Below are positions 8,682 through 54,964 of a stretch of 64,000 nucleotides of DNA, piece after piece (positions within the stretch are counted from its first letter, which is position 1; every line of letters starts with the position of its first letter). Made by a program: the position numbers and the translations under genes. The notes under the pieces were generated by a model, which searched no databases, had not been told where the DNA came from, and saw nothing but the letters and a program-made list of their open reading frames with translations. Source of the DNA: Alloyangia pacifica (lineage in GTDB: Bacteria > Pseudomonadota > Alphaproteobacteria > Rhodobacterales > Rhodobacteraceae); assembly GCF_020524285.1 (NCBI RefSeq), contig NZ_JAIVKX010000023.1:1-64000 (forward strand). Direction: 5' to 3'.

Positions 8682-8695
8682 GAAGGGAGAGCTTC

Positions 8696-23151: not shown

Positions 23152-23478
23152 AACTGCCTGAACCCGGGCACCCGTCGTTGGCGTCGCCGGTGGCCCGGGG
23201 GCGGCGCGGAGCTCCGCGCTGCGGACAGGGCGACATTCGGCGCGCCTGAAGCGTGGATCCCGCGCACGACCTTACCGGTAGCGTGGCCCGCTCAGTCAGG
23301 TGAATTGGCGCGTGGGTGCAGGCTCTGATTTCCGAGTGGATCTACGCTTGACCCTAGGGCCAGCGCTGCCGCGGCTCCGATGCGGGAAGCGCCCCGAGAG
23401 CTCGGGATTAGAAACGCCCGAACGTTCCAAGAAGAAAAAATGGCATCCTCCTCCGATGTCGTCCAACAGGAGTTCACC
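23152..23478. promoter_or_regulatory. Intergenic region, araC to branched-chain-type ABC operon
   Basis: 327 bp without a supported gene. It contains a GC-rich imperfect hairpin right after the araC stop (CCCGGGCACC with GGTGGCCCGGG, no T tract) and a self-complementary GCGCGGAGCTCCGCGC near 23205. The promoter of the operon starting at 23479 must lie in the distal part. Confidence 0.4.
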
Positions 23479-24675: not shown

Positions 24676-24690
24676 CAGAGAACCTCTACA

Positions 24691-24722
24691 GGCGTCAGGC
24701 TCATCGCGCCTGACGCCCTTTC
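24691..24722 (+). terminator. Intra-operon hairpin after the binding-protein gene
   Basis: GGCGTCAGG (24691-24699) pairs with CCTGACGCC (24709-24717), then CTTTCC. It is probably a partial terminator or mRNA stabiliser that keeps binding-protein expression above that of the transporter genes. Confidence 0.65.
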
Positions 24723-24744
24723 CATTCAGACAGGGAACAACGCT

Positions 24745-26246: not shown

Positions 26247-26247
26247 C

Positions 26248-27168: not shown

Positions 27169-27171
27169 TCC

Positions 27172-33491: not shown

Positions 33492-33512
33492 GCCTTCCTT
33501 TCCTTGCTCCCT

Positions 33513-33543
33513 GGGGTCGCGGCCGCGCCGTGGCCCCTTTTTT
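33513..33543 (+). terminator. Terminator after hyuB
   Basis: GGGGTCGCG (33513-33521) pairs with CGTGGCCCC (33529-33537), including two G-T pairs, followed by six T. The next gene starts 13 bases later, so its expression depends on read-through or on a promoter overlapping hyuB. Confidence 0.75.
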
Positions 33544-33555
33544 GATGAGGCCCAA

Positions 33556-34488
33556 ATGAAACTTGCGATAATCGACGACTACCAGTCGGTCGCGCTGGAG
33601 ATGGCCGATTGGTCCACAGTGAAGGAACGCTGCGAGATCACAGTCTTTAGCGACCACCTCTCTGAGCCGGAGGCGCTCGCCCAGCGGCTGCAGGACTTCG
33701 ATATCATCTGCGTCATGCGTGAGCGAACCCAATTCGACCGCGCGCTGCTGAGCCAGCTACCCAAGCTCAAAATGATCGCTTCGAACTCGGCGGCGAATGC
33801 CGCTATCGACATCTCCGCCTGCGAGGAAATGGGCATCCATGTCAGCCACACCGAGTTCCTGCTCTACGGCACGACCGAGCTGACCTGGGGGCTGATCCTC
33901 TCGGCGATCCGGCGCCTGCCGCAGGAAATTGACAATTTCCGTGCGGGCCGCTGGCAACAGCACGTTGGGCAGGACATCCATGGGCGGACGCTCGGAATCG
34001 TCGGTCTCGGCAATTTCGGACGCGCGGTTGCCAAGGTCGGACAGGCCTTCGGCATGGACGTCGTGGCCTGGAGCCAGAATCTCGATTCGGCTTTTGCGGC
34101 GGAACTTGGTGTGCGCGCAGTCAGCAAAGAAGAGCTTTTCTCGGGCTCCGACGTGATCAGCATCCACATGAAGCTCAGCGAACGATCGCACCACATGGTC
34201 GGCGCGGCGGAACTGGCACTCATGAAACCATCAGCCTGGCTAGTTAACGCCTCACGGGGGCCCTTGGTGGATGAGGCGGCCCTAATCGCGGCGCTCAAAG
34301 CAGAGCAGATCGCCGGCGCGGCGCTCGACACTTATGACCAGGAACCGCTGCCCGTGGATCACCCATTCCGGGTCCTTGAGAGCGTTATCGCGACGCCGCA
34401 TATCGGCTTCGTGACTGAGGACACATACAGACTATTCTATGGCCGGATGGTCACACGCATTGGCGAGTGGCTGGAACGCTCGCAATAA
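33556..34488 (+). CDS. D-2-hydroxyacid dehydrogenase (NAD(P)-dependent)
   Basis: 310 residues from ATG 33556. The Rossmann domain carries LGIVGLGNFGRAVAKVG near residue 146; the catalytic Arg lies in NASRGPLVDE and the catalytic His in TPHIGFVT. The family interconverts 2-keto acids and D-2-hydroxyacids; phosphoglycerate dehydrogenase-like sequences also belong here. As the neighbour of hydantoinase genes it could reduce a keto acid formed from an amino acid product. This is inference, because a terminator separates it from hyuB. Confidence 0.92.
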   Translation: MKLAIIDDYQSVALEMADWSTVKERCEITVFSDHLSEPEALAQRLQDFDIICVMRERTQFDRALLSQLPKLKMIASNSAANAAIDISACEEMGIHVSHTEFLLYGTTELTWGLILSAIRRLPQEIDNFRAGRWQQHVGQDIHGRTLGIVGLGNFGRAVAKVGQAFGMDVVAWSQNLDSAFAAELGVRAVSKEELFSGSDVISIHMKLSERSHHMVGAAELALMKPSAWLVNASRGPLVDEAALIAALKAEQIAGAALDTYDQEPLPVDHPFRVLESVIATPHIGFVTEDTYRLFYGRMVTRIGEWLERSQ

Positions 34489-34747: not shown

Positions 34748-35683
34748 ATGACACTCATCTTCCAGACCGACGATTTCGAGGGGGCCGACCGGCTCGAATA
34801 CTGGCAAAACATGATAAGCCAGCACCATGTTTCCGTGGTCTCGCCCGGCGGTGCCGCGCAAGATTTCAGCGGGCGCATGAAGATCGACGACTGGGGTGGG
34901 TTACAGTTCTCGGATACCACGTTCAGCCCGATTTCCTACAGCCACGGGGTCGAGGAAATACGTCAGTCCGAGCGCGACGACTTTCTCTGCGTGCTGAGCC
35001 TCGAGGGGGGCGGGCGGTTCTGCAACAACGACAGTTCATTCGCCTTCAGCGCCGGCGACATGGTGGTCTACGACACCGACCAAATCTATGCGATCGAATT
35101 CCCCGAGAAGGCGCGGACGATTTCGCTTCGCATCCCACGCCCCCTGATCATCAGTCGCCTATCCGGTGCCGACCGCCAGTTCGCCCTGCACATCGACGGC
35201 GCGCAACCTATGGCGCAGCTAGCTGCCGGTCTCATGAAAAACGTCTGCGCGCTCGACGAGCTGCCCGGCAGCCAGCGCTGCCGCGATGCCGAGGCACCCA
35301 TTCTCGACCTGCTGAGCCTTGCCGCCAGGGACCTGCGCGGCGAAGAGCAGCGCCCCACTCCCGGCCAGCATATGCTACTTAAGCGGATCAAGGCCGAGCT
35401 GATGGAGCGTCTTGAAGACAGCACGATTTCGGTGACCTCGATCGCCCAGGAGAACCGGATCTCGCCGCGCACGCTCAATCGTCTCTTCGCGTCCGAAGGG
35501 ACGACGGTGATGCGCTGGATCTGGTCGCAGCGTCTGGCGGCAAGCTATCGCGCCATGTCCGAGGGTTCGGTGCGGCAGGTGACCGAGGCGGCATTCCGCT
35601 TCGGCTTCAAGGACTCGTCGCATTTTGCGCGGGCTTTCCGCAAGGAATTCAACATTCCGCCAAGCAAGCTGATCGGTTCCTGA
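34748..35683 (+). CDS. AraC family transcriptional regulator
   Basis: 311 residues; AAGGGAAGC precedes the start. AraC_binding_2 sensor (GDMVVYDTDQIYAIEFP) and C-terminal double helix-turn-helix (ENRISPRTLNRLFASEGTT; VTEAAFRFGFKDSSHFARAF). It closely resembles the AraC protein at 22198 along its whole length. It is followed by the convergent transporter of the nitrile hydratase cluster and preceded by the hydantoinase genes; which of the two it controls is unclear. Confidence 0.92.
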   Translation: MTLIFQTDDFEGADRLEYWQNMISQHHVSVVSPGGAAQDFSGRMKIDDWGGLQFSDTTFSPISYSHGVEEIRQSERDDFLCVLSLEGGGRFCNNDSSFAFSAGDMVVYDTDQIYAIEFPEKARTISLRIPRPLIISRLSGADRQFALHIDGAQPMAQLAAGLMKNVCALDELPGSQRCRDAEAPILDLLSLAARDLRGEEQRPTPGQHMLLKRIKAELMERLEDSTISVTSIAQENRISPRTLNRLFASEGTTVMRWIWSQRLAASYRAMSEGSVRQVTEAAFRFGFKDSSHFARAFRKEFNIPPSKLIGS

Positions 35684-35805: not shown

Positions 35806-38328
35806 TCAGTGCGCGGGTTTGGCCGGCTTGCGCATCTGGCTGAAGAGTCCTGCCGCGATGAAGGTCGCGCCACCGATCAACACATATTGCCAGACCGATC
35901 CGAGGTTCAGGAAGGGCAGGGCGGCAATGATCGATTGGATGAACAAGGCCCCGGCCAGTGTGGCGAGGAACGAGCCGCGCCCGCCCGTGATCTGTGCGCC
36001 GCCCAGCACCACGGCGGTCACGCTCATGAGGGTGTAGCTGACGCCCGTTGTGGGAGAGCCGATCCCGACCTGCGCTGCCAGAAGCAGCCCGGCGACGCCC
36101 GCAAAAAGACCACTCCCGACGAAGGCGAGAACAACGATCTTGCCGCGCTGCAGGCCAATCATCTCGGCAGCCTTGGGGCGCGAGCCGACGGCGCGCAGGG
36201 CGCGGCCGACCGGGCGCCGGAAGAGGCCGAATTCGGCGCCCAGGGTTAGGGCGATGACGAACACGAAGACCAGTGGCACCGGGCCGACCAGCATCTGCAC
36301 CGTCTCCATGTAGCCATCGGAGAGAAGCCCATCGGGTGAGGGCCGCAGAATGAGCGACAGCCCCTGCAGGCCAGTATAGGTCGCAAGCGTCACCACGATG
36401 GCCGGCAGCTTGAGGCGCTCTACGAGAACACCGTGCAACAGGCCAACTGCCGTACATATGACAAGGACGACGAGCGCGCCGCCGACATAGCCGACCGGCG
36501 GTTCTTCCCCCAGCAAGTACGAGGACAGGACGACGGCAAAACCGATGAGCGGCCCCACGGCAAGGTCGATGCCGCCCTTGATGATCACGAAGAGCTGGGC
36601 GAAGGCTGCCAGCGCAAGGATGCTGGTCAGCGTAGCAATGCTCTGCAGACTGAATGCCGAGAGGAACCACGGGTTGATAGCCTGCGTGACACCCATCACC
36701 AGAACGGACAGCAGCACGAGGATCGCCGCGGGCATCTGGTCGGAGCTCCAGAAGGCGGAGCGTTTTCTGCCTCCTGCATCGGCGTCCGAGCCATCGCGAA
36801 TACCGGTAGCCTTAAGATTGGCCTCGGTGATCTTGGCATCATTGACATCCGCGCCGGTCAGCTCGGTCACCACCGAGCCGCGCGAGAATACCAAAACGCG
36901 GTCGCACAGGCCCTCGATCTCTACGCCGTCCGCCGAGGAGACGATCACCGCACAGCCGGAATCGGCCATTTCGCGTAGCTTGTTGTAGATGTCCGAGCGC
37001 GAGCCCACGTCGACCCCTTTGGTCGGCTCGTCGACGAGCAGTACGCGCGGTTTCATCGCGATCTCACGGCCGATGAGAACCTTCTGCTGGTTGCCGCCCG
37101 AAAGCTGGCCGACCGTCGACTCTACGGTCGGAGCCTTGACCCGCAGATCGGCATGGATCTGCTCGGCAAGCTCCTTTTCGCGGCGGGCGGATAGCAGGCC
37201 GTGGTCCGAGATCGCGGCGAGCTGGCCGAGCCCCTCGTTCTCGCGGATGGTGAGCGAGAGGACAAGCCCTTCGGCGTGACGGTCGTCGGGCACGAAGGCC
37301 ACGCCGGCGCGGCGGAAGTTGGCGACACCGGGTTTCGGCTCGTCTATATCGACGCGGATGTCGCCGGAGGTTTTCGGATTGATCCCAGCGAGGGCGCGCA
37401 GGAAGTCGCGCTGGCCTTGTCCTTCGACACCGGCCAGACCGATGATCTCGCCCGGACGTACCGCCAGTGACACGTCGCGGAAGCCCTTGCCCGACAGAGC
37501 TGCCACGGTGAGCAGCTTGGGGCCGGTGCCGATCTTGCCTTTGGGCGGGAAGACCTGCCCGAGGGGGCGCCCGACGATCAGGTTGACGATCTCGTCGGGG
37601 GTGAAGTCGGCGGCGGGCCGGGTCTCAATCAGGTCGCCGTCACGCAGCACCGACACGCGGTCGGCGATAGCCATGACTTCGTGCAGGCGGTGCGAGATGT
37701 AGATGATCGCGGTGCCCTGCGCCTTCAGCTCGGCAATGAGATGGAACAGGTGCCGCACCTCAGGGTCCTGGAAAGGCTCGGTGGGTTCGTCGAAGATGAA
37801 GACGGCGGGGCGGCTCGCAAGCGCGCGGGCGATCTCCAGAACGTGGCCCTGCGCCAACGAGAGGTCGGCGGCGCGAGTAGAGAGGTCCATCGCCAACGCC
37901 TTGGTGGAGACCCGGTCGAGCAGCTCCTGTGCCTCGGAAGGCGTCAGGTCCTGTCGTGCCAGCTGCAAGTTCTCGAGCACCGTCAAATCGGGAGCCAGCG
38001 CCGGGTGCTGGAAGGCCACCGACAGGCCCATCTCGCGCACCTGCGCGGCCTGCGACCGGGCGGTCTCGCCCTTGATCGACACGGTGCCGGTGTCGGGAGT
38101 GAGCACGCCTGCAGCACAGTTGATCAGCGTGGACTTGCCCGCACCGTTCTCGCCGACGATGGCGTGAACCTCTCCCGGCCATGCCTTGAGGTCGATACCC
38201 TTGAGCGCCTTCACCGGGCCGAAGGACTTGGTAATTGCGTCGAGGATCAGGGCGGGCGGCGCAACGAGCTCTGCTGCGGCGACGGGTTGTGCGTTTGCGG
38301 TCATGGGAACTGCTTTCATGTCGGTCAC
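35806..38328 (-). CDS. Ribose-type ABC transporter, fused ATPase-permease (840 residues)
   Basis: A single 840-residue frame combines an RbsA-like tandem ATPase (residues about 25-515) and an RbsC-like permease (about 530-840). ATPase part: VGENGAGKST, FIFDEPTEPFQDP, then LSGGNQQKVLIG and LLVDEPTKGVDVG in the second domain, which also has GVEGQGQRD in place of Walker A. Permease part: IIKGGIDLAVGPLIGF and GSRPKAAEMIGLQRGK. The two are normally separate proteins. The fused gene starts with GTG overlapping the separate permease by four bases (ATG 38319 is the alternative start), so the channel would combine a fused and a free permease. It is the distal gene of the leftward nitrile hydratase cluster. 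Confidence 0.9.
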   Translation of the reverse strand: MTDMKAVPMTANAQPVAAAELVAPPALILDAITKSFGPVKALKGIDLKAWPGEVHAIVGENGAGKSTLINCAAGVLTPDTGTVSIKGETARSQAAQVREMGLSVAFQHPALAPDLTVLENLQLARQDLTPSEAQELLDRVSTKALAMDLSTRAADLSLAQGHVLEIARALASRPAVFIFDEPTEPFQDPEVRHLFHLIAELKAQGTAIIYISHRLHEVMAIADRVSVLRDGDLIETRPAADFTPDEIVNLIVGRPLGQVFPPKGKIGTGPKLLTVAALSGKGFRDVSLAVRPGEIIGLAGVEGQGQRDFLRALAGINPKTSGDIRVDIDEPKPGVANFRRAGVAFVPDDRHAEGLVLSLTIRENEGLGQLAAISDHGLLSARREKELAEQIHADLRVKAPTVESTVGQLSGGNQQKVLIGREIAMKPRVLLVDEPTKGVDVGSRSDIYNKLREMADSGCAVIVSSADGVEIEGLCDRVLVFSRGSVVTELTGADVNDAKITEANLKATGIRDGSDADAGGRKRSAFWSSDQMPAAILVLLSVLVMGVTQAINPWFLSAFSLQSIATLTSILALAAFAQLFVIIKGGIDLAVGPLIGFAVVLSSYLLGEEPPVGYVGGALVVLVICTAVGLLHGVLVERLKLPAIVVTLATYTGLQGLSLILRPSPDGLLSDGYMETVQMLVGPVPLVFVFVIALTLGAEFGLFRRPVGRALRAVGSRPKAAEMIGLQRGKIVVLAFVGSGLFAGVAGLLLAAQVGIGSPTTGVSYTLMSVTAVVLGGAQITGGRGSFLATLAGALFIQSIIAALPFLNLGSVWQYVLIGGATFIAAGLFSQMRKPAKPAH

Positions 38329-39269
38329 GCGGTCTTGAGACGGTTCGCGATGGACGGAAGGCTTACGCCGAGAAGGACGATGGCTGCCTGAATGAGGTAC
38401 TGCACGGCGGTGTCGAACCCGAGGCTGATCACCAACTGTCCCAGATAGGTCAGAAAGAAAGCGCCGATCCCGGTCGCCAGCACCGAGCCGCGCTCACCGG
38501 TGAGGGAGTTGCCTCCCACTACATAGGCGGCGACGGTGGCCAGCATGTAGTCGTTGCCAGCGAAAAGCGTCGGAACGTTCGACAGGCCTGCGAAGAGCAC
38601 GCCCGCGGCGGCGAAGAGAATGCCGGCCCCGATGTAGGCGCCGACTTGGAAAAGCTCGACACGGAAGCCGAGGGCGAGCCCGACGTTCGGGCTGAGCCCG
38701 GAAACCGAGAAGCGGCGGCCAAGCGCGGTGCGCGAGATTACCAAGGCTACCAGGGCAACCAGTACGAGCGCGACAAGGAAAGGCACCGGGATACCGACGA
38801 CGCGCGAAGCAGCGAGGTCGGCGATCGGTTTCGCGACCGTCGAGGCACGGCCACCGGACAGAGCCAGGACCAGGCCGAAAACGATGGAGTTCATGGCGAT
38901 GGTGACAACCAGAGGAGGCACGCCGAGACGCGTAACGGTCAGCCCGTTGGCGAGCCCGACGCCGGCGCCGGTCAGCAGGGCGAGGCCGACGAGACCCATG
39001 GCCTCCAGCGTGCCGCCCCCTCCGGATTGGAAAGCGGTGACGACGACGGCGGCGAGGGAGAAGACCCCCGCGACCGAGATGTCCATGCCTCGTTGCTGAA
39101 TGACGAGGTGCTGACCGATGGAGGCCACCGCGAGGATCCCCGCAAAAGGCAGGAGCCCGGAGATGGAAGCGGGGCGGATCGTGGACGGGGCGATCACCCC
39201 GCCGATGACCAACAGGAGGATCAGGGCGGCCAGCGCCCTGAACTCGTTGCGTTTGAAGAGGTTGCCCAT
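38325..39269 (-). CDS. Ribose-type ABC transporter permease
   Basis: 314 residues, RbsC-like, with 8-10 hydrophobic segments. LVIQQRGMDISVAGVFSLAA is the conserved helix, and GLSPNVGLALGFRVELFQVG takes the place of the contact loop. It lies between the binding protein and the fused ATPase-permease; it presumably forms the second half of the channel. The GTGA overlap with the next gene indicates coupling. Confidence 0.92.
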   Translation of the reverse strand: MGNLFKRNEFRALAALILLLVIGGVIAPSTIRPASISGLLPFAGILAVASIGQHLVIQQRGMDISVAGVFSLAAVVVTAFQSGGGGTLEAMGLVGLALLTGAGVGLANGLTVTRLGVPPLVVTIAMNSIVFGLVLALSGGRASTVAKPIADLAASRVVGIPVPFLVALVLVALVALVISRTALGRRFSVSGLSPNVGLALGFRVELFQVGAYIGAGILFAAAGVLFAGLSNVPTLFAGNDYMLATVAAYVVGGNSLTGERGSVLATGIGAFFLTYLGQLVISLGFDTAVQYLIQAAIVLLGVSLPSIANRLKTA

Positions 39270-39294
39270 TGGGTGGTCTCCTTCGGTCGTGGGG

Positions 39295-40401
39295 TTATTC
39301 GAAGATCGCGCGCATCTCGTCCTTCGTCATCGTGAAGGTCGAGACATGGGCACCCATCGGAAGTTCAGGATCGCAGACCGGGTTGAACTTCGCATCTTCG
39401 CTGGCGGTGTTGTCGATCACCGGGTCGATGATGATCGTCGGCTCGTCGTTCTCGACGTCGTTGGCGGCGGCAACGCCCTTGCGCAGGGCAAGGCGGGTCA
39501 GCCAGGTTCCGGCCGAGGTGGTGAAGAGCTCGAAATCGGGGTTGGCGTCGTGGTTTTCCTGCCAGTAGCAGGCCAGCTCGTTGCCATCACGCGTGGTCCA
39601 GAGCGGGAGCTTCTCGCCAGCGATCTCATAGGCACGGATAGCGCCCATCGACCCGATGCCGTAGTCCGACATGACCGCGTCGATCTTGTCATGCTTGGCG
39701 AGCAGGCTGGTCATGACCTTCTGGTACTCGGCGCGATCCCAGTTGGTTGTCACGGGGCCGTCTTCGAGCATCTTGATCCCCGGGTGCTTGGCAAAAACCT
39801 CCATGGCACCATTGTAGGTGTTGCGGGTCGAGACCGCGCCAGGCGCGCCGCCGAGCATCACAACGTTACCTTCGCCGCCAAGTTGCTCGACGATCCATTC
39901 CGCCGCCATTTTGCCTTCGATGTTCTGGTCAGCCGTGACCATGCCGACGTAATCCTTGCCGGGAGTGCCAGGCCAGGAGGTCCCGCCGTAGAAGGGCACG
40001 ACCTTTGCGCCGCGCTTCATTGCCTGCGACATCGCACGCAGCAGCGCTTCACCGCCGTCGGGACGCACGACGATCACGTCGAAGCCTTGCGCCGCGAGGC
40101 CGGTGATGTCCGAGATCTGTTGCTCCACGCTGCCCTGCGCATCAACGTAGCGAGCTTCCTTGATGTTGTCGCACTTGGCGGCTTCAAGTTCGAACTCGGC
40201 ACGCGAGATCAGGCGCCAAGGGTCCGTGGAGGAGCCGGTGGAGTAGGCGACACGCATCGGCTTGTCGCCGCAGAAGTCGGTGATCGGGTGGAATTCCTCG
40301 ATGCCCCCGACCTTCTTCGGGTGCTGGTCGGCAGCGGCATGCGCCGCGCCCGAGGTGAGCAGGCCGAGCAGGCCGGCGGTGGCGAATTTGCGGAAAGACA
40401 T
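39295..40401 (-). CDS. Sugar-type ABC substrate-binding protein of the nitrile hydratase cluster
   Basis: 368 residues with a Sec signal peptide (cleavage near GAAHAAAD). Peripla_BP_4 fold: MRVAYSTGSSTDPWRL, VEQQISDITGLAAQGFDVIVV, and VTADQNIEGKMAAEWIVEQLGG. Two Cys near DFCGDK and VCDPE may form a disulphide. It follows the amidase gene by 63 bp on the same strand, so the ligand is probably a nitrile, amide or precursor rather than a sugar. That is contextual only. Confidence 0.92.
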   Translation of the reverse strand: MSFRKFATAGLLGLLTSGAAHAAADQHPKKVGGIEEFHPITDFCGDKPMRVAYSTGSSTDPWRLISRAEFELEAAKCDNIKEARYVDAQGSVEQQISDITGLAAQGFDVIVVRPDGGEALLRAMSQAMKRGAKVVPFYGGTSWPGTPGKDYVGMVTADQNIEGKMAAEWIVEQLGGEGNVVMLGGAPGAVSTRNTYNGAMEVFAKHPGIKMLEDGPVTTNWDRAEYQKVMTSLLAKHDKIDAVMSDYGIGSMGAIRAYEIAGEKLPLWTTRDGNELACYWQENHDANPDFELFTTSAGTWLTRLALRKGVAAANDVENDEPTIIIDPVIDNTASEDAKFNPVCDPELPMGAHVSTFTMTKDEMRAIFE

Positions 40402-40464
40402 TGTTGTTTCCTTTTCTGGTTTCTGTCAGCCGATGCGGCTGATCCCTGTTGAAGTTCGGCAAGT

Positions 40465-41850
40465 TCAGGAGGCGAGAGGAGGCTGCCGGAGGTGCCAGTC
40501 GGTGGCTTTCTGGAAGGCCGAACCGGCTCTCACGAGCCGCCCTTCGCAGAGCTGCGGGGCGACAAGCTGCACGGCGACGGGCAGACCGTTTCGGTCGAAG
40601 CCGCCTGGCATCGTGACGGTGGGCGACCCCGACATGTCGAAGGGGCCGGTGAAGCGGATGAATTCGGAGTTGTCGCCCTCGGCGTAGTCGGCCCAGTTGG
40701 CGAGATCCGGAACCCGCCAGATGGTGGCGGGGATGAGCAGCAGATCGACCTGCCGGAAGAGCGCATTCAGCTTGGCAGTGAACCCCAGCCGGGTCTGATG
40801 GGCCCGGGCGACCTCGCGCGAGCTGTAGCCGTCGCCCATGTCGATGAGCGCGGCGAGGGTCTCGCCATAGTCATCGCGGCGGGAGGGGAAGGTGGCCGCA
40901 TGTGCCGCGGCGGTCTCGGGGGCGCAGATCGGCAGCCAGGCCTTGGCGGCGGCCTTCCAGTCTTCGACCGTCACGTCGACCAGAACCGCGCCCAGAGATT
41001 GCAGCACCCGCGCGGCCTCTTCGATGGCGGCCACGTTGGCGGCGTCGATGCCCTCGGAGATATAGGCGCGGTCGATGCCGATGCGCAGCCCGGCAATCGA
41101 CTGGCCAGCCTCGGCGCCGTAGTCCGGAACCGGCGCGGTGAGCGCCGTGGGATCATTGATATCCGCGCCGGCCATGGCCTGCAGGACGAGGCCGGCATCT
41201 TCCGCGCTGCGCGCGAAGGGTCCGATGTGATCGAGCGAGGCGGCCAGTTCGAAGGCGCCGTGGCGGCTGGTGCGGCCCCAGGTGGGCTTGAGGCCCGTCA
41301 CCCCGTTCGCCGCCGCAGGAAAGCGGATCGAGCCGCCGGTGTCGGAGCCGAGCGAGGCGAAGGCGAGCCCCGCCGCGACCGACACGCCCGAGCCCGAGGA
41401 GGAGGAGCCCGCCCAGTGTCCGGCATTCCAGGGGTTCGACGGGGCGGTCACATCGGGATGGTGATTGGCATAGGCCTGCTCAGTGGTCTTCACCTTGCCC
41501 AGCGTCACGGCGCCAGCGGCCTCGAGCCGCTGAATGACGGTGGCGGTGTAGCCCGGACGGAAATCCTTGTGAATCCGGGTGCCGGCAGTGGTTTTGGCGA
41601 AATCGGTGTAAAGGATGTCTTTGTACGATAGGGGCACGCCGTGCAGCGGACCTCGGTATTTCCCCGCGGCAATCTCCGCTTCGGCGGTAGCGGCCTGCTC
41701 CAGCGCCCGTTCCGCGGTCACGGTGACATAGGCATTCAGTTGCGGCTCGAGCGCCTCGATCCGGCTCAGCATGTGCCGGGTGACTTCGACCGGCGAGACC
41801 TTGCGGGCTGAGAGGTCACGGGCGAGGGCGGTGATGGAGCTGTAGTGCAT
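40465..41850 (-). CDS. Amidase signature family hydrolase
   Basis: 461 residues. The Ser-cisSer-Lys triad is visible: Lys in SYKDILY (residue about 74), the Gly/Ser loop AGSSSSGSG, and the nucleophile Ser in GSDTGGSIRFPA. These enzymes hydrolyse amides to acid and ammonia. It sits downstream of nitrile hydratase and a cysteine hydrolase in the same direction, so it likely hydrolyses the amide formed there. It is not closely similar to the two other amidases in this window and lacks the NHase-linked signature seen at 49389. Confidence 0.92.
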   Translation of the reverse strand: MHYSSITALARDLSARKVSPVEVTRHMLSRIEALEPQLNAYVTVTAERALEQAATAEAEIAAGKYRGPLHGVPLSYKDILYTDFAKTTAGTRIHKDFRPGYTATVIQRLEAAGAVTLGKVKTTEQAYANHHPDVTAPSNPWNAGHWAGSSSSGSGVSVAAGLAFASLGSDTGGSIRFPAAANGVTGLKPTWGRTSRHGAFELAASLDHIGPFARSAEDAGLVLQAMAGADINDPTALTAPVPDYGAEAGQSIAGLRIGIDRAYISEGIDAANVAAIEEAARVLQSLGAVLVDVTVEDWKAAAKAWLPICAPETAAAHAATFPSRRDDYGETLAALIDMGDGYSSREVARAHQTRLGFTAKLNALFRQVDLLLIPATIWRVPDLANWADYAEGDNSEFIRFTGPFDMSGSPTVTMPGGFDRNGLPVAVQLVAPQLCEGRLVRAGSAFQKATDWHLRQPPLAS

Positions 41851-41870
41851 CGGCTTGTCTTTCGGCAGGG

Positions 41871-42563
41871 TCAGGCGGCGTTCGCGGAGATGAGGCTCAG
41901 AACCTCGCTGGTGGGCACCACGTCGGCGTAGACGACATAGAGATTGCCGAGCGTGGCGTTGTGCTCCTCGTCGGTGATCGTGGCGTTGGCATCCGAGACG
42001 AAGATCACGTCGTAGTTCATCTGCGCCGCGTCACGGGCGGTAGCTTCCGAGCAGCAGTTGGTCAGCGTGCCGGTGACGATCACCGTCTCGATGCCGTTCG
42101 CCTGCAGTTCCTCGTTCAGTCGCGAGGTGCCGGGGGTGAAGCCGGAGAAGCGGGTCTTGCGGACAACCAGATCGCCCTCCTGCCGGTCGAGTTGGGGGGC
42201 CAGGTCATGCAGCGGGTTGCCGGGCGTTAGCGCGGCGACGAGATCGGTCGAGAAGGGGCTGCCCAGCAAATTGCGGTAGAAGCTGGTCCAGACCACCGGC
42301 TCGGAGCCGTCATAGGTGTTCTGGATGAAGATCACCTTGCCACCGGCCTCGCGCAGTGCGGCGGCAATGGCGTTGACGTTGGGCACGATCTCGCGCGCCA
42401 CCGGCACCTCGGCGCAGGTGCCTTCGTCGAGGTAGGCGCGCTGCATGTCGACCACCAGCAGCGCAGTCTTGCTCAGGTCGAACTCGGTGAAGGCCTGGTC
42501 GCGGCCATCGCGGTTCCAGCGGCCGCGTTCGAGCATGACGGGATTGATGTCGGTCTTGTGCAT
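41871..42563 (-). CDS. Isochorismatase-like cysteine hydrolase
   Basis: 230 residues from MHKTDINPV (42563), aligned with the start of its paralogue at 58239; an ATG 39 bases upstream lacks a better ribosome site. Catalytic triad positions are visible: Asp in LLVVDMQ, Lys in VVRKTRFSGF, Cys in TLTNCCSEATARDA. Members include N-carbamoylsarcosine amidase, ureidoacrylate and biuret hydrolases, and isochorismatase. Its place between nitrile hydratase and amidase argues for C-N cleavage rather than isochorismate. It is clearly related to the protein at 57529. Confidence 0.9.
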   Translation of the reverse strand: MHKTDINPVMLERGRWNRDGRDQAFTEFDLSKTALLVVDMQRAYLDEGTCAEVPVAREIVPNVNAIAAALREAGGKVIFIQNTYDGSEPVVWTSFYRNLLGSPFSTDLVAALTPGNPLHDLAPQLDRQEGDLVVRKTRFSGFTPGTSRLNEELQANGIETVIVTGTLTNCCSEATARDAAQMNYDVIFVSDANATITDEEHNATLGNLYVVYADVVPTSEVLSLISANAA

Positions 42564-42614
42564 GGAGTCGGGTCTCGTCAGATGTGGCCTTGGAGCGGGC
42601 ATGGCTCGCCCGGG

Positions 42615-42694
42615 CCGCTGGCGAAGATGCCAGCGGGAGTTTGGGGAAGGTGTGCGGAATTGGCGCCCCGGATGAGGCTCTGGGGAAGAGCCTC
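42615..42694 (-). other. Two tandem hairpins between the NHase accessory gene and the cysteine hydrolase gene
   Basis: CCGCTGGC (42615-42622) pairs with GCCAGCGG (42629-42636), and GAGGCTCT (42674-42681) with AGAGCCTC (42687-42694). Neither has a T tract on the minus strand. They may mark mRNA processing or stability control within the operon, or slow read-through. Confidence 0.5.
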
Positions 42695-42712
42695 GGTCGG
42701 ACGTGCGGCGGA

Positions 42713-43189
42713 TCAGGCCTCGGCGGGACTTACCGAGACTGGCTCGGCCGGCGTGCTCGGCGCATGGTGGTGATGGTGGTCATCGTCGATGTCGGGCAGG
42801 TTCGGCAGGTCGCGGCGAAATTCGATCGGTTTGCCGTGCTCGGTGGCGATGTAGGAGCGCCGCCAGTGCTCAGCGGTCTCGGAGATCTCCTCGTCTGTCG
42901 CCGCCCCGGTCTTGCGCAGGAGGGTGATCAGCGCCTCGGACCATTGCCGGTAATAGGCTTCTTCCGAGGTCTCGATGCCGCTCTGCGGGTGCGTGCGGAT
43001 CTCGGTCGAGAAGGTCTCGACCCATTCCGCCCAGCTGAACACACCGGCCTGCGCGAGCGCCATGGCAAGCCCGAAGACCTGCGCGTGCCAGGGCTCGCCG
43101 AAGCCCGGGGCGCCGACGTCGGCCTGTCCCAGAGAGGTCAGGTCGGTGCGGCAGGGATCGAGCGCCGAGATGATACTGCGCGTGTCCAT
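42713..43189 (-). CDS. Nitrile hydratase accessory protein (P14K/NhlE-like)
   Basis: 158 residues, starting within the TGATG overlap with the beta-subunit stop. It is related to the N-terminal part of NHase beta (PWHAQVFGLAMALAQAGVFSWAEWVETF; EEAYYRQWSEALITLL), which is the known feature of NHase accessory proteins such as NhlE/P14K. For cobalt-type enzymes the accessory protein swaps metal-loaded alpha subunit into the enzyme and helps cysteine oxidation. A His-rich tail (DIDDDHHHHH) could bind metal. Operon position after alpha and beta is typical. Confidence 0.9.
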   Translation of the reverse strand: MDTRSIISALDPCRTDLTSLGQADVGAPGFGEPWHAQVFGLAMALAQAGVFSWAEWVETFSTEIRTHPQSGIETSEEAYYRQWSEALITLLRKTGAATDEEISETAEHWRRSYIATEHGKPIEFRRDLPNLPDIDDDHHHHHAPSTPAEPVSVSPAEA

Positions 43190-43857
43190 CACAGGTCCTC
43201 CAGATAGGTCTCGTAGAGGTCGATGTAGACGGCATCTTTGCCGCCGGCGTCGGGCCCCCAGAGGTCGGCCGCCTCGAAACGGACGGTGTACGTGTGGTCC
43301 AGCGCCTCGTAGTCGCCCTGCGAGCGGGCATCTGCATAGAGGCAGGCGCCGCGGTAGGCGATGATGGTGCAGGGCTTGCCGCGGGTGTAGCGCGGCAGAC
43401 GGGTGTGGGTCTTCGGGTTGATGTTCAGCGACCGGACCCTGTCCCCTTCCTTGTAGCGCGGCTGGGTCTTGGACTCGCCGGTGACCGGGTGGTTGGTGGT
43501 GAACATCTTGGTGACGGCTTCGGGCTCCAGTGCCTCGAGCCTGGCGGCCCAATCGGGAAGCGGCGCGCTGGCCTTTCCCGAGGCCAGCTCCTCGGCGGTC
43601 GCGATGCCCTTTTCCTGCAGGTAGGTCTCGGTCCCGTCGAGCCAGTGCTCATAGTAGGGCGAGGCCAGCCAGTGCAGAGCCTCGATCCGTTCCATGGAGT
43701 GGCGCGCCTCGTCGGCGACCGCGAGGCCGGTCATCAGGGTTAGCAAGTGGGCGCCGCAGATACGCCGCTCCCAATCCTCGTGGAACATGGGCTCATTCTC
43801 GTCGAAGGGCAGGGGCCCCATGCCGTGCATGCCGCCGAGATCGTGAATGCTGTTCAT
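43189..43857 (-). CDS. nthB: Nitrile hydratase subunit beta
   Basis: 222 residues. [16 protein letters not shown] is the NHase beta start, and [15 protein letters not shown] with [14 protein letters not shown] the SH3-like C-terminal half. The beta subunit forms the substrate channel and holds Arg residues that contact the modified cysteines of alpha. It overlaps the alpha stop by four bases and the accessory gene by one. Confidence 0.95.
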
Positions 43858-44483
43858 GCGGTCTCTCCCTTGGTCAGCGCATCGGGGGTTAGTGGCAGGC
43901 CGGTGCCGATCATCGAGTCGCGAGTGACCAGTTCGGCCAGCTGCGCCTCGGTCCAGCCCTCGGTGCCCTCAGGGCGCATCGGCAGGATGAGGTAGCGCAG
44001 CTCATTGTTTGAGTCCCAGACTCGGACTTCTACCTCGTCGGGAATCGTCAGACCGAATTCCTCGAGTACCGCACGCGGTTCGATCACCACGCGCGAGCGG
44101 TAGGGGGCGGTCTTGTACCAGGTCGGCGGCAGGCCGAGGACCGGCCACGGGTAGCACGAGCACAGCGTGCAAACGACGACGTTGTGGATCTCGGGGGTGT
44201 TCTCGCAGACCACCATGTATTCGCCTTGGAAACCGGCGAAGCCGAACTCCTCGATCGCGGCGGAGGCATCGGTCATCAGCCGGACCTTGTACTCGGGATC
44301 GCTCCAGGCGCGGGCGATGACCATGGCGCCGTTCTTGGGCCCCAGCTTCTGTTCGAAAATATCGACGATGGCGTCGACCGCGCCTTCCTTGATCAGTCCC
44401 TTCTCGGTGAGCAGTTGCTCAAGCGCGCGAACGCGCAGTGCCTTATCGGAGGGCGGCTTGGTGCCGTGGTGATGGTCGGACAT
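43854..44483 (-). CDS. nthA: Cobalt-type nitrile hydratase subunit alpha
   Basis: 209 residues from ATG 44483. The claw motif VCTLCSC is at residues 104-110 with Cys at 105, 108 and 110, followed by [10 protein letters not shown]. Thr in VCTLCSC marks the cobalt type; iron-type enzymes have VCSLCSC. The two later Cys are normally oxidised to sulphinic and sulphenic forms. The enzyme hydrates nitriles to amides in the cytoplasm. It is the first gene of the leftward cluster. The divergent HupE-like permease is the likely metal source. The N-terminus (MSDHHHGTK) is His-rich. Confidence 0.96.
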
Positions 44484-44801
44484 GTTCTTCACCCTGTCGT
44501 AGGAAGTCGAGGTTTCGTGGTTCTTGTTTCTCTCACTATGACTCGATTTGGCCGTGCCTGTCTGTGCTGAGTGTGCCCGTTTGCTCGACTGGATTGGCCA
44601 AAATGCCCCGCTCTGTATGGTGAGAAAGCCATAAAAATATGAGCAAGAACCGGCATTGGACTCTATGTGCCAATCTATCCGGATGGATCGGCCAGCATGG
44701 CATTCGCGCTTGATCGGCGAGGCTGTGCAGGTCTGGATTGTGCGTATCCCGGCATGCAACGCGCCGGATGCCACAGTACCGACAGCAAAGAGGACCGCCC
44801 C
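44484..44801. promoter_or_regulatory. Divergent control region, nitrile hydratase operon / HupE-type permease
   Basis: 318 bp without a gene. Two related elements lie in it: GATTGGCCAAAATGCC (44592-44607) and GATCGGCCAGCATGGC (44686-44701), matching at 12 of 16 bases and 94 bp apart in the same orientation. Direct repeats of this size fit an AraC-type regulator, and an araC gene follows the HupE gene. This is a candidate, not a proven site. Confidence 0.4.
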
Positions 44802-45437
44802 ATGCTCCGCACATCTCATCGTCTTGGCCTTGCCGCGCTCGGCCTTCTTGCACCGCTGCCCGCGCATGCACACCACGCCATGGGGGGGGAGCTGCCGACC
44901 AACGCCCTCGAGTCCGCAATCAGTGGCCTCGCGCACCCGGTCATCGGTATCGATCACTTGGCCTTCGTTGTGCTGGTCGGCCTACTAGCGGCCCGCAGCG
45001 GTCAGCGGCTGGCGTTGAGCGGGAGCTTCGCGGCGGCGACGGTGGTTGGCTGTTTGCTGTTGTTGGCGGGTGTGACGCTGCCTCTCACCGAAGTGGTCAT
45101 CGGCGGCTCGGTCGTCGCTCTGGGCGCGGTCCTGCTGCGCGCCGAGCTGCCCAAGGTCAAGGCCCTCGGGATCGTCGTCCCGGTCATCGGCCTGTTCCAC
45201 GGCTGGGCCTACGGCGAGGCCATTCTCGGGGCTGAGACCGGTGTAATCCCGGCCTATCTACTGGGCTTCGGTCTGGTCCAGTTCGCCATCGCGGCCGGTG
45301 TGGCGACGCTGGTGGTGGCGGCGCGCGAGAGCGCGGGTCTTGCCGCCACCCGCGAGCGCATCACCGCGGCGGCCTGCATGGGTATTGGTTGCGCTGTAAT
45401 GATCGAGACCGTCGAGGCGATGGTCTTCACGGTCTGA
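44802..45437 (+). CDS. HupE/UreJ family cobalt (or nickel) permease
   Basis: 211 residues; ATG 44802 is eight bases after GAGG and gives a signal-like helix ending AHAHH. The family signatures are present: [16 protein letters not shown] near residue 43 and [16 protein letters not shown] near 125. The membrane protein has six to seven helices and His residues able to guide Ni or Co. It is divergent from a cobalt-type nitrile hydratase, so cobalt import for that enzyme is the natural reading, comparable in role to NhlF of Rhodococcus, which belongs to another family. Confidence 0.92.
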
Positions 45438-45478
45438 CAATTTCTCCCTGGGGGCACATTGCCGTGCCCTGACTCGAA

Positions 45479-45508
45479 CGGCCCGGGATATCCCGGGCCG
45501 CTTTTTTT
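45479..45508. terminator. Strong terminator between hupE and araC
   Basis: The 22-base perfect palindrome from 45479 to 45500 (CGGCCCGGGAT and its complement) is followed by CTTTTTTT. It lies between convergent genes and serves mainly the rightward hupE transcript. Confidence 0.9.
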
Positions 45509-45530
45509 CATGCTGCCCTGCCGCAAGGGG

Positions 45531-46502
45531 TCAGTGAGTCTGGGCGAGAAGACTGCGCGGAGTGATCCCGAACTCGCTCTTGAAGGCGCGGGCGAAGTGC
45601 GAGAAGTCGCTGAAGCCACATTTCAATGCAACATCCGAGACGCGGTATTCTCCGCCCGCGAGGAGCAATTCATGAGCCCGCTGCAAACGCTGTTGCCAGA
45701 GCCAGCGGATCGGCGTGGTATCCTCGATCGCGAAGACCCGGTTCAGCGTCCGTCGCGACACGCCGAGCTCTTTCACCAGAAGATCGGAATTCAGTTCGGT
45801 GTCTTCGAGGTGTGCCAGGATGTGCGATTTGGCGCGGTCGAGCAGCGCACCATGGCGGCTGGTGTCAAAGTCCGAGAGTCCGGCCTCGCTTTCGAACGCA
45901 GCGGCAAGCAGGTCGATTAAGGACATGGCGACGCGGTTCGACGACGAACAGTCGCCTGTCAGATCGAGGCCATGCGCCTCGCGCAGCATGTTAGTGGCAA
46001 GCCGTCCTATCGGCGAGGTGCTCGACATCGGTCGGGCCGTCAGACGTTCGGCGTTCGGCATGCGGTTGAGCATCACGGAGCGCGGAATCTTGACCCAGTA
46101 ACCACCATAGTAGCCGTCCATGTGGTTATGAAACGGACGCGCGGAGTCGTAGATGCAGAATTCTCCAGCCTGCTGGTGACCTGACCGGCCATTCTGGTCG
46201 ACCTTCATCGCGCCTTCCGTCAGTAGGGCGATGTAGAAGCAGTCCAGCGTGTCGCGGCGAATGTCATTCTGATCGCGCCGGCTGACCATGCCGCTAGTCG
46301 CCAGCCGGCTCAGGCCTAGGCTGCCGAGGCTGCGCATGGAAATCTTGGCCCGGAAGGCGTCGGCTTCCTGCAGTGGCGTGTTCTCGGCAGGGGAAAAATG
46401 CTTGCAGATAACTTCGTTCCAGAATTGGAAGCGATCTCGCGCAGGAAGGGCTGCGGAGTCGATCGTCGTGATGGCCTTGAGCTGCTGTGTGACGGGGATC
46501 AT
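45531..46502 (-). CDS. AraC family transcriptional regulator near the nitrile hydratase cluster
   Basis: 323 residues from ATG 46502, which follows GGAAAG at the usual spacing; ATG 46523 is an alternative. AraC_binding_2 sensor (GEFCIYDSARPFHNHMDG) and C-terminal double helix-turn-helix (ELGVSRRTLNRVF; SDVALKCGFSDFSHFARAF). It resembles regulators of nitrile- and amine-using operons such as NitR and FeaR in general architecture. It is next to hupE and the NHase operon and is the best candidate for their control. Confidence 0.92.
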   Translation of the reverse strand: MIPVTQQLKAITTIDSAALPARDRFQFWNEVICKHFSPAENTPLQEADAFRAKISMRSLGSLGLSRLATSGMVSRRDQNDIRRDTLDCFYIALLTEGAMKVDQNGRSGHQQAGEFCIYDSARPFHNHMDGYYGGYWVKIPRSVMLNRMPNAERLTARPMSSTSPIGRLATNMLREAHGLDLTGDCSSSNRVAMSLIDLLAAAFESEAGLSDFDTSRHGALLDRAKSHILAHLEDTELNSDLLVKELGVSRRTLNRVFAIEDTTPIRWLWQQRLQRAHELLLAGGEYRVSDVALKCGFSDFSHFARAFKSEFGITPRSLLAQTH

Positions 46503-46756
46503 ATCGCGCTTTCCGATGGGCATGATCCAAGAATTCCACCGCGTCCAAATTGCGCAACGGAGGGCCGTCAGGCAACGATCACAATGAGATCGGGTGCGTG
46601 AGAAATATGCGCATGGCGCGAGGTGTGCTTAGTTTTGCGTCGATGGCCGAAGCGCGTGAACTGGGTTAGTTTCCCCACAAAAAAAGGGGGATTCGCGTGA
46701 AAATGGCGCGCCTTGGGGAAGGCGCGCCGCGAAAGTCCCTCAATTGTGCGCAGAAT
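46503..46756. promoter_or_regulatory. Promoter region of araC and 3' end of the MFS gene
   Basis: 254 bp without a gene. It contains a run of seven A/T near 46680 and the hairpin described separately; the araC promoter should lie between the two. Confidence 0.35.
46705..46728 (-). terminator. Probable terminator of the MFS gene
   Basis: GGCGCGCCTT (46705-46714), loop GGGG, AAGGCGCGCC (46719-46728): perfect 10-bp stem; on the minus strand ATTTTCACG follows. Confidence 0.6.
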
Positions 46757-48013
46757 TTAGGCTGGAAGCTGGCTGCGTCGCCGCGCCGCTGTGGCGCTAG
46801 TGAGCAGCGCCAGAGCGATGAGCACCAAAGAGAAGATGGTGAAGGCCGTAGAGAGACCGAGGCCGTCGATCAGGAAACCGAAGGCAAAGGTCGGAATCGC
46901 GTTCGACAGGTAGCCGACAACGTAGAATTTAGCGATCTGCGAGGCGTGGGTGCCCGGGGCTGCGGTCTGGTTGACGAGCGCCGCCCCGCCGACGAAAGCT
47001 GCTCCGTAGAACAGGCCGCAGAGCGGCATGGCTAGGATGAAGATGGCCGATACGCTGGCCAACGCTCCGACCAACGTCATGGCCTGCAGAGCCGCAAGTG
47101 TCCCGCAGCCAATGACGATCGCTGTCAGCGGGCGAATGCGCCCGCTCATCATCTGGCCGATACCTGCGAAGAGTTGAAAGATGGCTGGAAGTAGCCCTGC
47201 CAAGGCGTGGATATTGAGATGGAAGAGGTCGGTCGCGAGGCTGACTGCGGTCGCCATGAGGATCGAGCCAAGCATCCAGGCCACTGCGACCGACAGGCAC
47301 GCCAGACGCAGGAAGCGCGCACGTTCCCGATCGTCGAGCGACGCCCTGGCATCGCGGGCCGGCGTGTTGGATGCGCGCTTGCCCTTTGGCCAAGGCGCCA
47401 GTGTAAGCCCGAGGAAAGCGAATGCAGCGACCGCGGCAATGCACAGGAAGGGTGTGACCAGCGGGGCAGCGTTTGTCGCGAGAGCGGCCGAGGACAGACA
47501 GGGACCGGCCGCTGCGCCGCCGGTGAAGGCAATTGTCGAGACCGTGGCCGCGCGGCCGCGCTTATCTTCGCTGTCGAGGTCGAAAAGAGCGGTGGAGGCT
47601 GTCGAGGTGATCAGTCCTGTGCTGATGCCGGACAGGAACCGTCCGACGAGCAGCATCCAGACCTGGTCGGCCAAGGCAAAGAGGATCGCGCCGGTCGCTG
47701 TGATCAGTAGCGCTGGCAGCAGGATCTGGCGCCGGTCTGTCACAAGACGATCAAGCCGCCCGGCCAGAAACAGCGAGATCAGCGTGCCGACTGCGTAGAC
47801 CGAGAAGATGGTGGTGCCCGCGCTCTGCGGCAGGCCCCATTCGCTTATATACACGGAGTAGAGTGGGCTGGGTGTAGTGCTTGCAAGGAGGGCCGCGAAG
47901 ATTGCCAGCGCACAGAAGGCTCGGCCCACGAAGAAACTCGAGCTTCGTGACGCGGAGGCTGTGCTCTGGCTGAACGTGTTGGCGTGAGAAGCGATGCTTT
48001 GTGACGTCGCCAT
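46757..48013 (-). CDS. MFS transporter
   Basis: 418 residues from ATG 48013, which follows TGGAG; the frame opens 27 codons earlier without a ribosome site. Twelve hydrophobic segments. AGRLDRLVTDRRQILLPAL is the loop 2-3 motif, and GISTGLITSTASTALFDLD a helix-5-like motif. Probably exporting small molecules; substrate unknown. It is divergent from an oxidoreductase gene. Confidence 0.9.
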   Translation of the reverse strand: MATSQSIASHANTFSQSTASASRSSSFFVGRAFCALAIFAALLASTTPSPLYSVYISEWGLPQSAGTTIFSVYAVGTLISLFLAGRLDRLVTDRRQILLPALLITATGAILFALADQVWMLLVGRFLSGISTGLITSTASTALFDLDSEDKRGRAATVSTIAFTGGAAAGPCLSSAALATNAAPLVTPFLCIAAVAAFAFLGLTLAPWPKGKRASNTPARDARASLDDRERARFLRLACLSVAVAWMLGSILMATAVSLATDLFHLNIHALAGLLPAIFQLFAGIGQMMSGRIRPLTAIVIGCGTLAALQAMTLVGALASVSAIFILAMPLCGLFYGAAFVGGAALVNQTAAPGTHASQIAKFYVVGYLSNAIPTFAFGFLIDGLGLSTAFTIFSLVLIALALLTSATAARRRSQLPA

Positions 48014-48095
48014 GTGGCGGCTGCTCCAGGCTATGCGGACGATGGATTGTCGGACTTGGCCACTGGTCAACATCAGCAAGAGTGGTATAGCCATG

Positions 48096-48164: not shown

Positions 48165-49103
48165 ATGACCCAGATGAAAGCGATCCAGTTCTCGGCCTTT
48201 GGCGATACCGGAGTACTCGCCCTTGTCGACATACCGCGCCCCGTGCCTGCTGCGGGGCAGTTGCTGGTGCGGCAACAGGGTAGCAGCATCAACCCGGTCG
48301 ACCTGATGATTAGGCGCGGAGGCTACCCCTCGGTTCCCCCGAAGCTGCTGCCCTATGTCGGCGGGCGGGACGTGGGTGGTGTCGTCGAGGCGGTGGGCGA
48401 AGGCGTGGACACGGGTTGGATCGGGCGCCCGGTCTTCGGTGCGCCGGACTTCAGCCGCGGTGCCTTTGCCGAATGTATCGTCATGGGAACCGAGGAGGTC
48501 GCCGAGGTGCCCGACGGGCTGACACCGCGCGAGGCTGCACTTCTCCCGATCGCCGCGCTTACGGCGTGGCAGGGGCTCTTCCGTCAGGGCGGACTGCAAG
48601 CGGGCGAGACCGTTCTGATCCATGGTGGCTCGGGGGGCGTCGGGCACTATGCGGTTCAGATGGCGGCGCGCGCGGGTGCGAAGGTGATCGCGACGGCGTC
48701 CGAGCGAAACAAGGACTTCCTCAGCGCGCAGGGCGCGGAGCGTGTGGTTGCCTATGATACAGAGGAGTTCGACGAGGTTCTGGCTGACGTCGATCTGGTA
48801 CTTGACTTGATCGGTGGTGAGACTCAGCAACGCTCTTGGCGAATTCTCAAAGAGGGTGGCCGGCTGATCTCCGCCGTGGCAGCGCCAGACGCCGAAAGCG
48901 CGCGCGAAAAGAAGGCAAAGGTTGCGAAGTTCTTCATTGCGGAGTCCCGCCAGGACGATCTCCTTCGTATCGCCGCGGAGGTCGCGGCAGGCACCCTGAA
49001 GAGCCACGTGGCGCAGTGGTGTCCGCTTGCCGAAGTCCCTGCGGCGCAGGCCGCGCTGGAAGAGGGCGGGATCCGTGGCAAAATCGGCGTTGAAATCGGC
49101 TGA
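48165..49103 (+). CDS. NADP-dependent quinone-oxidoreductase-like MDR protein
   Basis: 312 residues with CAGGAGAAAG before the start. Zinc-free medium-chain dehydrogenase type: SSINPVDLMIRRGGYP in the catalytic domain and LIHGGSGGVGHYAVQMAARAG in the NADPH fold. These reduce quinones, enones or aldehydes. It is divergent from the MFS exporter, a pairing seen in detoxification modules. No Cys-rich structural zinc motif is present. Confidence 0.92.
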   Translation: MTQMKAIQFSAFGDTGVLALVDIPRPVPAAGQLLVRQQGSSINPVDLMIRRGGYPSVPPKLLPYVGGRDVGGVVEAVGEGVDTGWIGRPVFGAPDFSRGAFAECIVMGTEEVAEVPDGLTPREAALLPIAALTAWQGLFRQGGLQAGETVLIHGGSGGVGHYAVQMAARAGAKVIATASERNKDFLSAQGAERVVAYDTEEFDEVLADVDLVLDLIGGETQQRSWRILKEGGRLISAVAAPDAESAREKKAKVAKFFIAESRQDDLLRIAAEVAAGTLKSHVAQWCPLAEVPAAQAALEEGGIRGKIGVEIG

Positions 49104-54005: not shown

Positions 54006-54072
54006 GTAAACTGAGCTGGTCTGCCGCAAATCGCGGCGGGCCGGTCCGGCCAATCCGAACACGGAGCGCCAA

Positions 54073-54939: not shown

Positions 54940-54964
54940 CCCGCCGTTCCAAAGGAGTCATCAA

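Follow-up and report, generated by a model that had tools for sequence, protein, structure and literature searches.

Cobalt-type nitrile hydratases (NHases) are known from gene clusters of a recurring make-up: those of Rhodococcus, Pantoea and Klebsiella share alpha, beta and accessory genes, an amidase and a cobalt-type permease. The plasmid regions of Pantoea At-9b and Klebsiella michiganensis run amidase-nthA-nthB-accessory-CbtB-CbtA, with no ATP-binding cassette (ABC) importer annotated and, in Pantoea, a lone "substrate-binding domain-containing protein" beside sucrose genes, and excerpts of a report on Rhodococcus BAA-870 describe a plasmid cluster with NHase, amidases and cobalt transport genes (PMC6941271). 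We describe here a locus of Alloyangia pacifica (Rhodobacteraceae), contained in a 64,000-nucleotide stretch of contig NZ_JAIVKX010000023.1 (positions 1 to 64,000; hereafter the window), in which the genes of a predicted cobalt-type NHase, a cysteine hydrolase and an amidase are followed on the same strand by those of a binding-protein-dependent ABC importer. A literature search found no such importer in an NHase operon within its reach, which took in few of the subscription journals.

On the importer side, the Teu system of Rhizobium (teuB-teuA-teuC1-teuC2), tied to bean-exudate uptake, is also CUT2-like and is plasmid-borne among dehydrogenase genes. Within the CUT2 family, a binding protein with an aromatic substrate has been described, Rhodococcus protein 4497, which binds phthalate esters according to the excerpted text (PMC13188901).

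Results

Eight intact genes, established with Pfam and NCBIfam models and a frame check, occupy 35806-44483 on the minus strand and would be transcribed in the order nthA, nthB, accessory gene, cysteine hydrolase, amidase, binding protein, permease and fused ATPase-permease. In order of rising coordinate, the junctions measure -4, 25, 63, 20, 110, -1 and -4 bases (the accessory start being taken as the ATG at 43189), so that three overlap and the largest gap, of 110 bases, separates the accessory gene from the cysteine hydrolase. Probable starts chosen by eye for alpha (44483, MSDHHHG) and for a divergent HupE-type permease gene (44802) leave 318 bases between the two. Every gene named in the original prediction was found where it had been placed, in an intact frame, and the small and overlapping junctions uphold the operon-like layout it described; from that layout, we infer that the eight genes are co-transcribed and regulated together. 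The set is flanked on both sides by AraC-type regulator genes that the prediction had not mentioned (Table 1), and relatives of the one beyond hupE adjoin two nth operons of Thioclava (57.6% and 50.5% identity).

The enzyme genes are readily assigned. Alpha (3.8e-89; NCBIfam 311.1 bits against a cut-off of 249.9), beta (NCBIfam 200.4 against 152.2) and the accessory protein (TIGR03889, 78.5 against 46) all exceed their models' thresholds. The motif VCTLCSC, which marks the Co-type metal site of nitrile hydratase, lies at alpha residues 104-110, and the best solved relatives of both subunits are chains of 3qxe, named a Co-type nitrile hydratase; motif and structural relative together bear out the earlier call of a cobalt enzyme, and the protein is predicted to bind cobalt and to hydrate nitriles. 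Thiocyanate hydrolase was considered and rejected, its gamma-subunit model TIGR03887 scoring 205.8 bits, under the cut-off of 291.5. The C-terminal tail of the accessory protein (42713-42787) opens with DDDHHHHH, a five-histidine run, which hints at metal handling. The amidase (PF01425, 327.8 bits, 1.7e-97) has Lys and Ser residues that align with those of GatA, and the Asp, Lys and Cys of the cysteine hydrolase (PF00857, 130.8 bits, 7.4e-38) align with those of 3irv and RutB. As the latter protein falls far under the NCBIfam equivalog cut-offs that it matches, including those of RutB and biuret hydrolase, we leave it without an assigned substrate.

The importer that follows belongs by Pfam to the CUT2 group (binding protein, Peripla_BP_4, 1.4e-37; permease, BPD_transp_2, 7.3e-22), and at that superfamily level its earlier description as "ribose-type" holds. 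It does not hold further down: against the named NCBIfam sugar equivalogs, the binding protein reaches at best 60.9 bits of the 335 required, the ATPase 374.2 of 689 and the permease 88.3 of 388, and the binding protein forms a subfamily of its own. When 11 such proteins (the window's, two from Thioclava and eight from other records) are aligned, 29 columns are invariant, among them C44, C77, C278, C343, W62-R63, W221 and N274. Two generic CUT2 binding proteins hold no cysteine in one case and four in the other, as counted and not compared column by column. On this evidence, the importer reads as CUT2-like but of a distinct four-cysteine subfamily with a fused ATPase-permease. An AlphaFold model of the binding protein, built with two sequences supplied, reached pLDDT 50 and pTM 0.50, too poor for a reading of the pocket.

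How rare this pairing is was gauged from 140 NHase neighbourhoods, each spanning at most about 20 kb. The family contributed 80 of these, drawn from 79 genomes with G016, of the same genus, counted in; the class, presumably Alphaproteobacteria, gave the other 60, drawn from 50 genomes. The neighbourhoods were chosen mostly from the top of the score lists, and several were shortened by contig ends. PF02979 matches 158 of 295 same-family genomes, of which 78 were covered, 136 of 366 of the class, of which 50 were covered, and 2 of 20 of the same genus (the source genome included). An alpha match was present in all 140 neighbourhoods and a beta match in 139. Profiles of the binding-protein subfamily and of the fused protein detect the importer in a single neighbourhood, that of the same-genus G016, whose operon proteins and HupE are 98-100% identical to those of the window. 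A lone generic binding-protein match in another neighbourhood (L089), at 39 bits, 9 kb from the NHase and cut by the region end, was not counted as a second pairing. Searching with the binding protein at E <= 1e-40 gave 8 matches among 293 relatives (the source genome and G016 included), and the source genome alone in the class (1 of 385) and in the phylum (1 of 328); a scan of genome contigs added one locus, in Nocardioides, that has no match to the NHase queries. The original prediction had called the pairing unusual, and the survey agrees.

Other arrangements were seen along the way. In L094, same-strand genes matching a Liv-type importer (binding protein, two ATPases and two permeases) come after the accessory gene of the NHase, which makes this locus another candidate for an NHase-tied importer. 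A Pseudoroseomonas plasmid (L133:9351-14070) has NikR upstream of its NHase and tripartite tricarboxylate transporter genes downstream on the other strand. Five class genomes, G344, G472, G569, G570 and G674, carry 8, 5, 6, 8 and 5 NHase alpha matches, the first three being of one genus.

The pairing recurs in Thioclava. Plasmid p2 of Thioclava sp. GXIMD2076 keeps the order nthA, nthB, accessory gene, amidase, binding protein, permease and fused protein, with identities, from nthA to the fused protein, of 76.8, 79.3, 78.1, 80.9, 83.8, 71.7 and 76.1%. A second nth operon lies 12.5 kb from the first (L134:22431-30015) and is arranged as amidase, nthA, nthB, binding protein, ATPase/permease and permease, no accessory gene being annotated between nthB and the binding protein. 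Its nthA is 70% and its nthB 49% identical to the window's, and its amidase is 81% identical to the product of a separate window gene at 49389; its importer is a different member of the same subfamily (binding protein 38%, fused protein 41%, permease 39%). Another Thioclava record holds both binding proteins.

A tree built from 139 concatenated alpha and beta sequences unites the NHases of the window, of G016 and of both Thioclava operons in one group (FastTree support 0.997), within which those of the two operons are sisters; the nearest relatives outside it (support 0.984) are L189 and L190, of one genus, and genes for CbiM, a Liv-type binding protein and an amidase lie close to the NHase of L190. 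The NHase-linked binding proteins, by contrast, are split in a 23-protein tree: two label changes are needed, forced by the starred branches, none of 200 bootstrap trees shows a single change, and the binding protein of the second Thioclava operon clusters among rhizobial and same-family proteins that have no NHase link. For this tree, the program warned of long branches (two outgroup rows and Rhodococcus). Once Teu rows are included, the second Thioclava protein keeps its place in the rhizobial and same-family group at 100/99; the accompanying group test, which counts the NHase-linked proteins as one group against the Teu rows only, is silent on one versus two origins. Because the NHases are sisters and the binding proteins fall in separate lineages, the pairing is most simply seen as made twice, one NHase lineage having, on this simplest reading, acquired two distinct members of one importer subfamily.

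Away from NHase genes, the importer keeps other company. The binding protein matched 19 plasmid records, of which the regions of seven were examined, one being Thioclava; the Shinella locus, in an unannotated record, and that of Nocardioides were read from frames. No NHase is annotated or matched beside the importer in the Aminobacter, Rhodococcus, Mesorhizobium, Rhizobium AB2/73, Sinorhizobium B11 and Shinella regions. The neighbours include alcohol and aldehyde dehydrogenases, EthD proteins, a CoA ester lyase, an intradiol dioxygenase (Sinorhizobium), an amidase (Aminobacter) and, in Shinella, a gentisate-dioxygenase-like frame named by eye. These speak for small catabolic substrates generally, not for nitriles in particular. 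The Shinella relative (L045:8557-17333) itself lies between SDR genes and a ketosteroid-dehydrogenase-like flavoprotein, again named by eye. The Aminobacter MSH1 plasmid pUSP2, from dichlobenil-treated soil, was examined as a further pairing and rejected: this circular plasmid has two NHase matches, and the one that was placed, the best match to beta, is about 85 kb from the importer.

The HupE-type protein matches HupE_UreJ (PF04955) at 98.5 bits (cut-off 23; 4.1e-28), and its HPVIGIDH at residue 45 fits the motif HPXXGXDH given for HupE/UreJ proteins in excerpts of a study that has members carrying nickel or cobalt, with cobalt transport documented for one cyanobacterial member (PMC7689651). 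Predicted nickel and cobalt branches of the family are mentioned in part of another (PMC2667541). Two further matches to the family occur elsewhere in the same genome. A cobalt-control riboswitch was sought with Rfam at gathering scores over the whole window, which returned no match to a riboswitch or to any other family. Cobalt, or nickel, is a putative substrate of HupE.

The original prediction described the cluster correctly and missed what surrounds it: the operon sits in a larger island of about 23.4-57.4 kb, much of which is conserved in Thioclava (Table 1). The hydantoinase A/B-type pair (29639-33491) is 88% identical in Thioclava and the adjoining D-2-hydroxyacid dehydrogenase-like gene 73%; the nearest NCBIfam model for the pair is caprolactamase, under its cut-off (508.7 and 240.7 of 1000 bits). 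The AraC genes of the island are 50-70% identical to Thioclava relatives. The amidase at 49389 has Thioclava relatives of 76-81%, the 81% one abutting the second nth operon there, and the permeases and ATPases of the Liv/urea-type importer are 48-59% identical, its binding protein being outside that comparison. The island reads as a region for amides, nitriles and perhaps lactams or hydantoins. Between the Liv-type importer and the hydantoinase pair lies a gene for a 373-residue protein (28386-29507) with weak TPR matches only, 63% identical in Thioclava. Outside the island, a large frame of 678 residues (7607-9643) matches a Liv-type permease domain over residues 406-662 only, towards its end.

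Table 1. Features of the nitrile hydratase locus and its surroundings (window coordinates; identities are to Thioclava relatives).
Feature	Position	Strand	Basis
Liv-type ABC importer (binding protein, two ATPases, permease)	23380..28245	+	76-83% identical in Thioclava
Hydantoinase A/B-type pair and D-2-hydroxyacid dehydrogenase-like gene	29639..34488	+	73-88% in Thioclava
Another AraC-type regulator, pointing towards the importer end of the operon	34748..35683	+	
Fused double-ABC ATPase and BPD_transp_2 permease, spanning TeuA plus TeuC1	35806..38328	-	Pfam/NCBIfam
ABC permease, BPD_transp_2	38325..39269	-	Pfam/NCBIfam
Substrate-binding protein, Peripla_BP_4, four-cysteine subfamily; signal peptide by eye	39295..40401	-	Pfam, alignment
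Amidase-signature amidase	40465..41850	-	Pfam, Lys and Ser aligned with GatA
Isochorismatase-type cysteine hydrolase; alternative start 42566	41871..42602	-	Pfam, Asp-Lys-Cys alignment
Nitrile hydratase accessory (activator/chaperone) protein, 158 residues, beta-N-like, C-terminal His run	42713..43189	-	NCBIfam
nthB, nitrile hydratase beta subunit, 222 residues	43189..43857	-	Domain models, solved relatives
nthA, Co-type nitrile hydratase alpha subunit, 209 residues, VCTLCSC	43854..44483	-	Domain models, motif
Divergent intergenic region nthA/hupE, presumed promoters	44484..44801	.	Read from sequence
HupE/UreJ-type permease, HPVIGIDH motif, putative cobalt (or nickel) uptake	44802..45437	+	Pfam, motif
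Terminator-like 9-pair hairpin between hupE and AraC gene	45479..45500	+	
AraC/XylS-type regulator, FeaR-like but below cut-off	45531..46523	-	
MFS permease	46757..48094	-	Relative in Thioclava island, 45%
Quinone-oxidoreductase-like protein	48165..49103	+	Relative in Thioclava island, 48%
Amidase like solved 3a1k; NCBIfam PRK07235 over cut-off	49389..50903	+	
Third amidase	51100..52470	+	58% in Thioclava
Liv/urea-type ABC importer	52776..57426	+	Binding protein 52776-54005; permeases 54073-54939, 54965-56005; ATPases 55998-56732, 56683-57426

Discussion

We suggest that, on balance, the locus is probably a substrate-dedicated operon for nitrile or amide catabolism, in which uptake is coupled to a two-step hydrolysis of one compound. 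The tight same-strand layout, the order conserved in Thioclava and the retention of active-site residues point this way, as do the recurrence of an NHase with the same importer subfamily in the second Thioclava operon, where a shared enzyme lineage is joined to a different importer lineage, and the catabolic surroundings of other subfamily members in annotated plasmids. In such a pathway, the secreted binding protein would capture a nitrogen compound, most likely a nitrile or the amide made from it, and pass it to a CUT2-like channel formed by the lone permease and the fused ATPase-permease. A cytoplasmic cobalt NHase, matured by the accessory protein, would then hydrate the nitrile, and the amidase would release ammonia and the acid, with the cysteine hydrolase perhaps reserved for a second amide or ureido bond. 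HupE may supply the cobalt, and the AraC-type regulators may turn the operon on. In this scheme, the ligand, the direction of transport, the metal, co-transcription and regulation are what we infer. More tentatively, and with some doubt on our part, the importer could provide high-affinity uptake for the natural nitrile of this NHase lineage (or its amide), having been recruited twice from the four-cysteine fused branch of CUT2.

A number of observations weigh against this proposal. No clear importer of the window kind accompanies the NHase in the other 139 neighbourhoods, and small nitriles may cross membranes unaided. Most solved structures related to the binding protein carry the name of a sugar-binding protein, and a sugar-acid kinase or Gfo/Idh/MocA gene lies no more than 10 kb from the importer relatives of Mesorhizobium and Sinorhizobium. 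Neither HupE nor the cysteine hydrolase has a match in either Thioclava nth locus. Adding the Teu rows leaves the deep binding-protein branches open, and one old pairing followed by several losses is a possible alternative to two recruitments.

Among other explanations, the importer might carry a precursor, such as an aryl alcohol, a lactam or a glycoside-like plant or algal compound, with the NHase acting on a later intermediate. The gentisate-dioxygenase-like frame of Shinella (by eye), the intradiol dioxygenase of Sinorhizobium, the EthD proteins and the dehydrogenases that adjoin importer relatives lacking an NHase would all suit such a role, as would the hydantoinase-type genes of the island and the related Teu importer, which is tied to bean-exudate uptake and lies beside aryl-alcohol dehydrogenase-type genes. 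However, nitrile hydratase, amidase and cysteine hydrolase are the only enzymes of the eight-gene run, and the second Thioclava operon holds an amidase, an NHase and the importer only; we regard the precursor hypothesis as unlikely, if far from negligible.

To the thought that an ordinary sugar-type importer came to lie beside the NHase by chance, or by hitchhiking in an island, we give little credence: membership of the CUT2 superfamily and the rarity of the pairing are compatible with it, but the junctions overlap or are short, the order is conserved in another genus and a second NHase operon carries a different importer of the same subfamily, and chance is made unlikely by this recurrence in Thioclava. 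It seems very improbable, too, that the importer mainly takes up an amide as a nitrogen source in a general amide-scavenging island, with the NHase secondary. The operon does have a Liv/urea-type importer on each side, neither more than about 13 kb off, and two further amidases come after it; most of the amidase and Liv genes of the island have relatives in the Thioclava island, and L094 offers an NHase with Liv-type genes downstream; yet both Thioclava operons pair the importer with NHase genes, and not with amidases alone.

To our knowledge, the natural substrates of nitrile hydratases are largely unknown. If the importer does serve the natural nitrile or amide of this NHase, its binding protein would for that reason be a handle on the substrate: an importer tied to an NHase offers a soluble protein for direct ligand screening, by which the natural substrate becomes testable. 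The same subfamily stands beside catabolic genes in rhizobia, Shinella, Aminobacter, Rhodococcus and Nocardioides, and one solved ligand would help in reading those loci as well.

Comparison with described systems

As an enzyme, the NHase of the window is of the same family as those at other loci of the family and class, the alpha subunits having a median identity of 57% and the beta subunits of about 34%. Unlike the Pantoea and Klebsiella clusters, the locus has a metal permease that is HupE-type and divergent, and its operon ends in a binding-protein importer.

That importer resembles CUT2 systems of the RbsB/RbsA/RbsC type in its Peripla_BP_4 binding protein, its BPD_transp_2 permeases and a double ABC protein with an altered second P-loop and LSGGNQQK; it departs from them in that ATPase and permease are fused and in the four invariant cysteines, W62-R63, W221 and N274 of the binding protein. 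The two teu regions examined carry no annotated NHase, and a close relationship to Teu in all components was considered and set aside: the ATPase is 40% identical, TeuB is only 24-25% identical to the window's binding protein and has one cysteine, not four (in the two TeuB sequences checked), and three Teu binding-protein rows form a branch of their own at 100/99. The correspondence is in the membrane and ATPase parts, where the two halves of the fused protein, ATPase and permease, match TeuA (39.7% identity) and TeuC1 (34.1%) of Sinorhizobium fredii respectively, so that a single gene in the window spans what in Teu are two separate ones.

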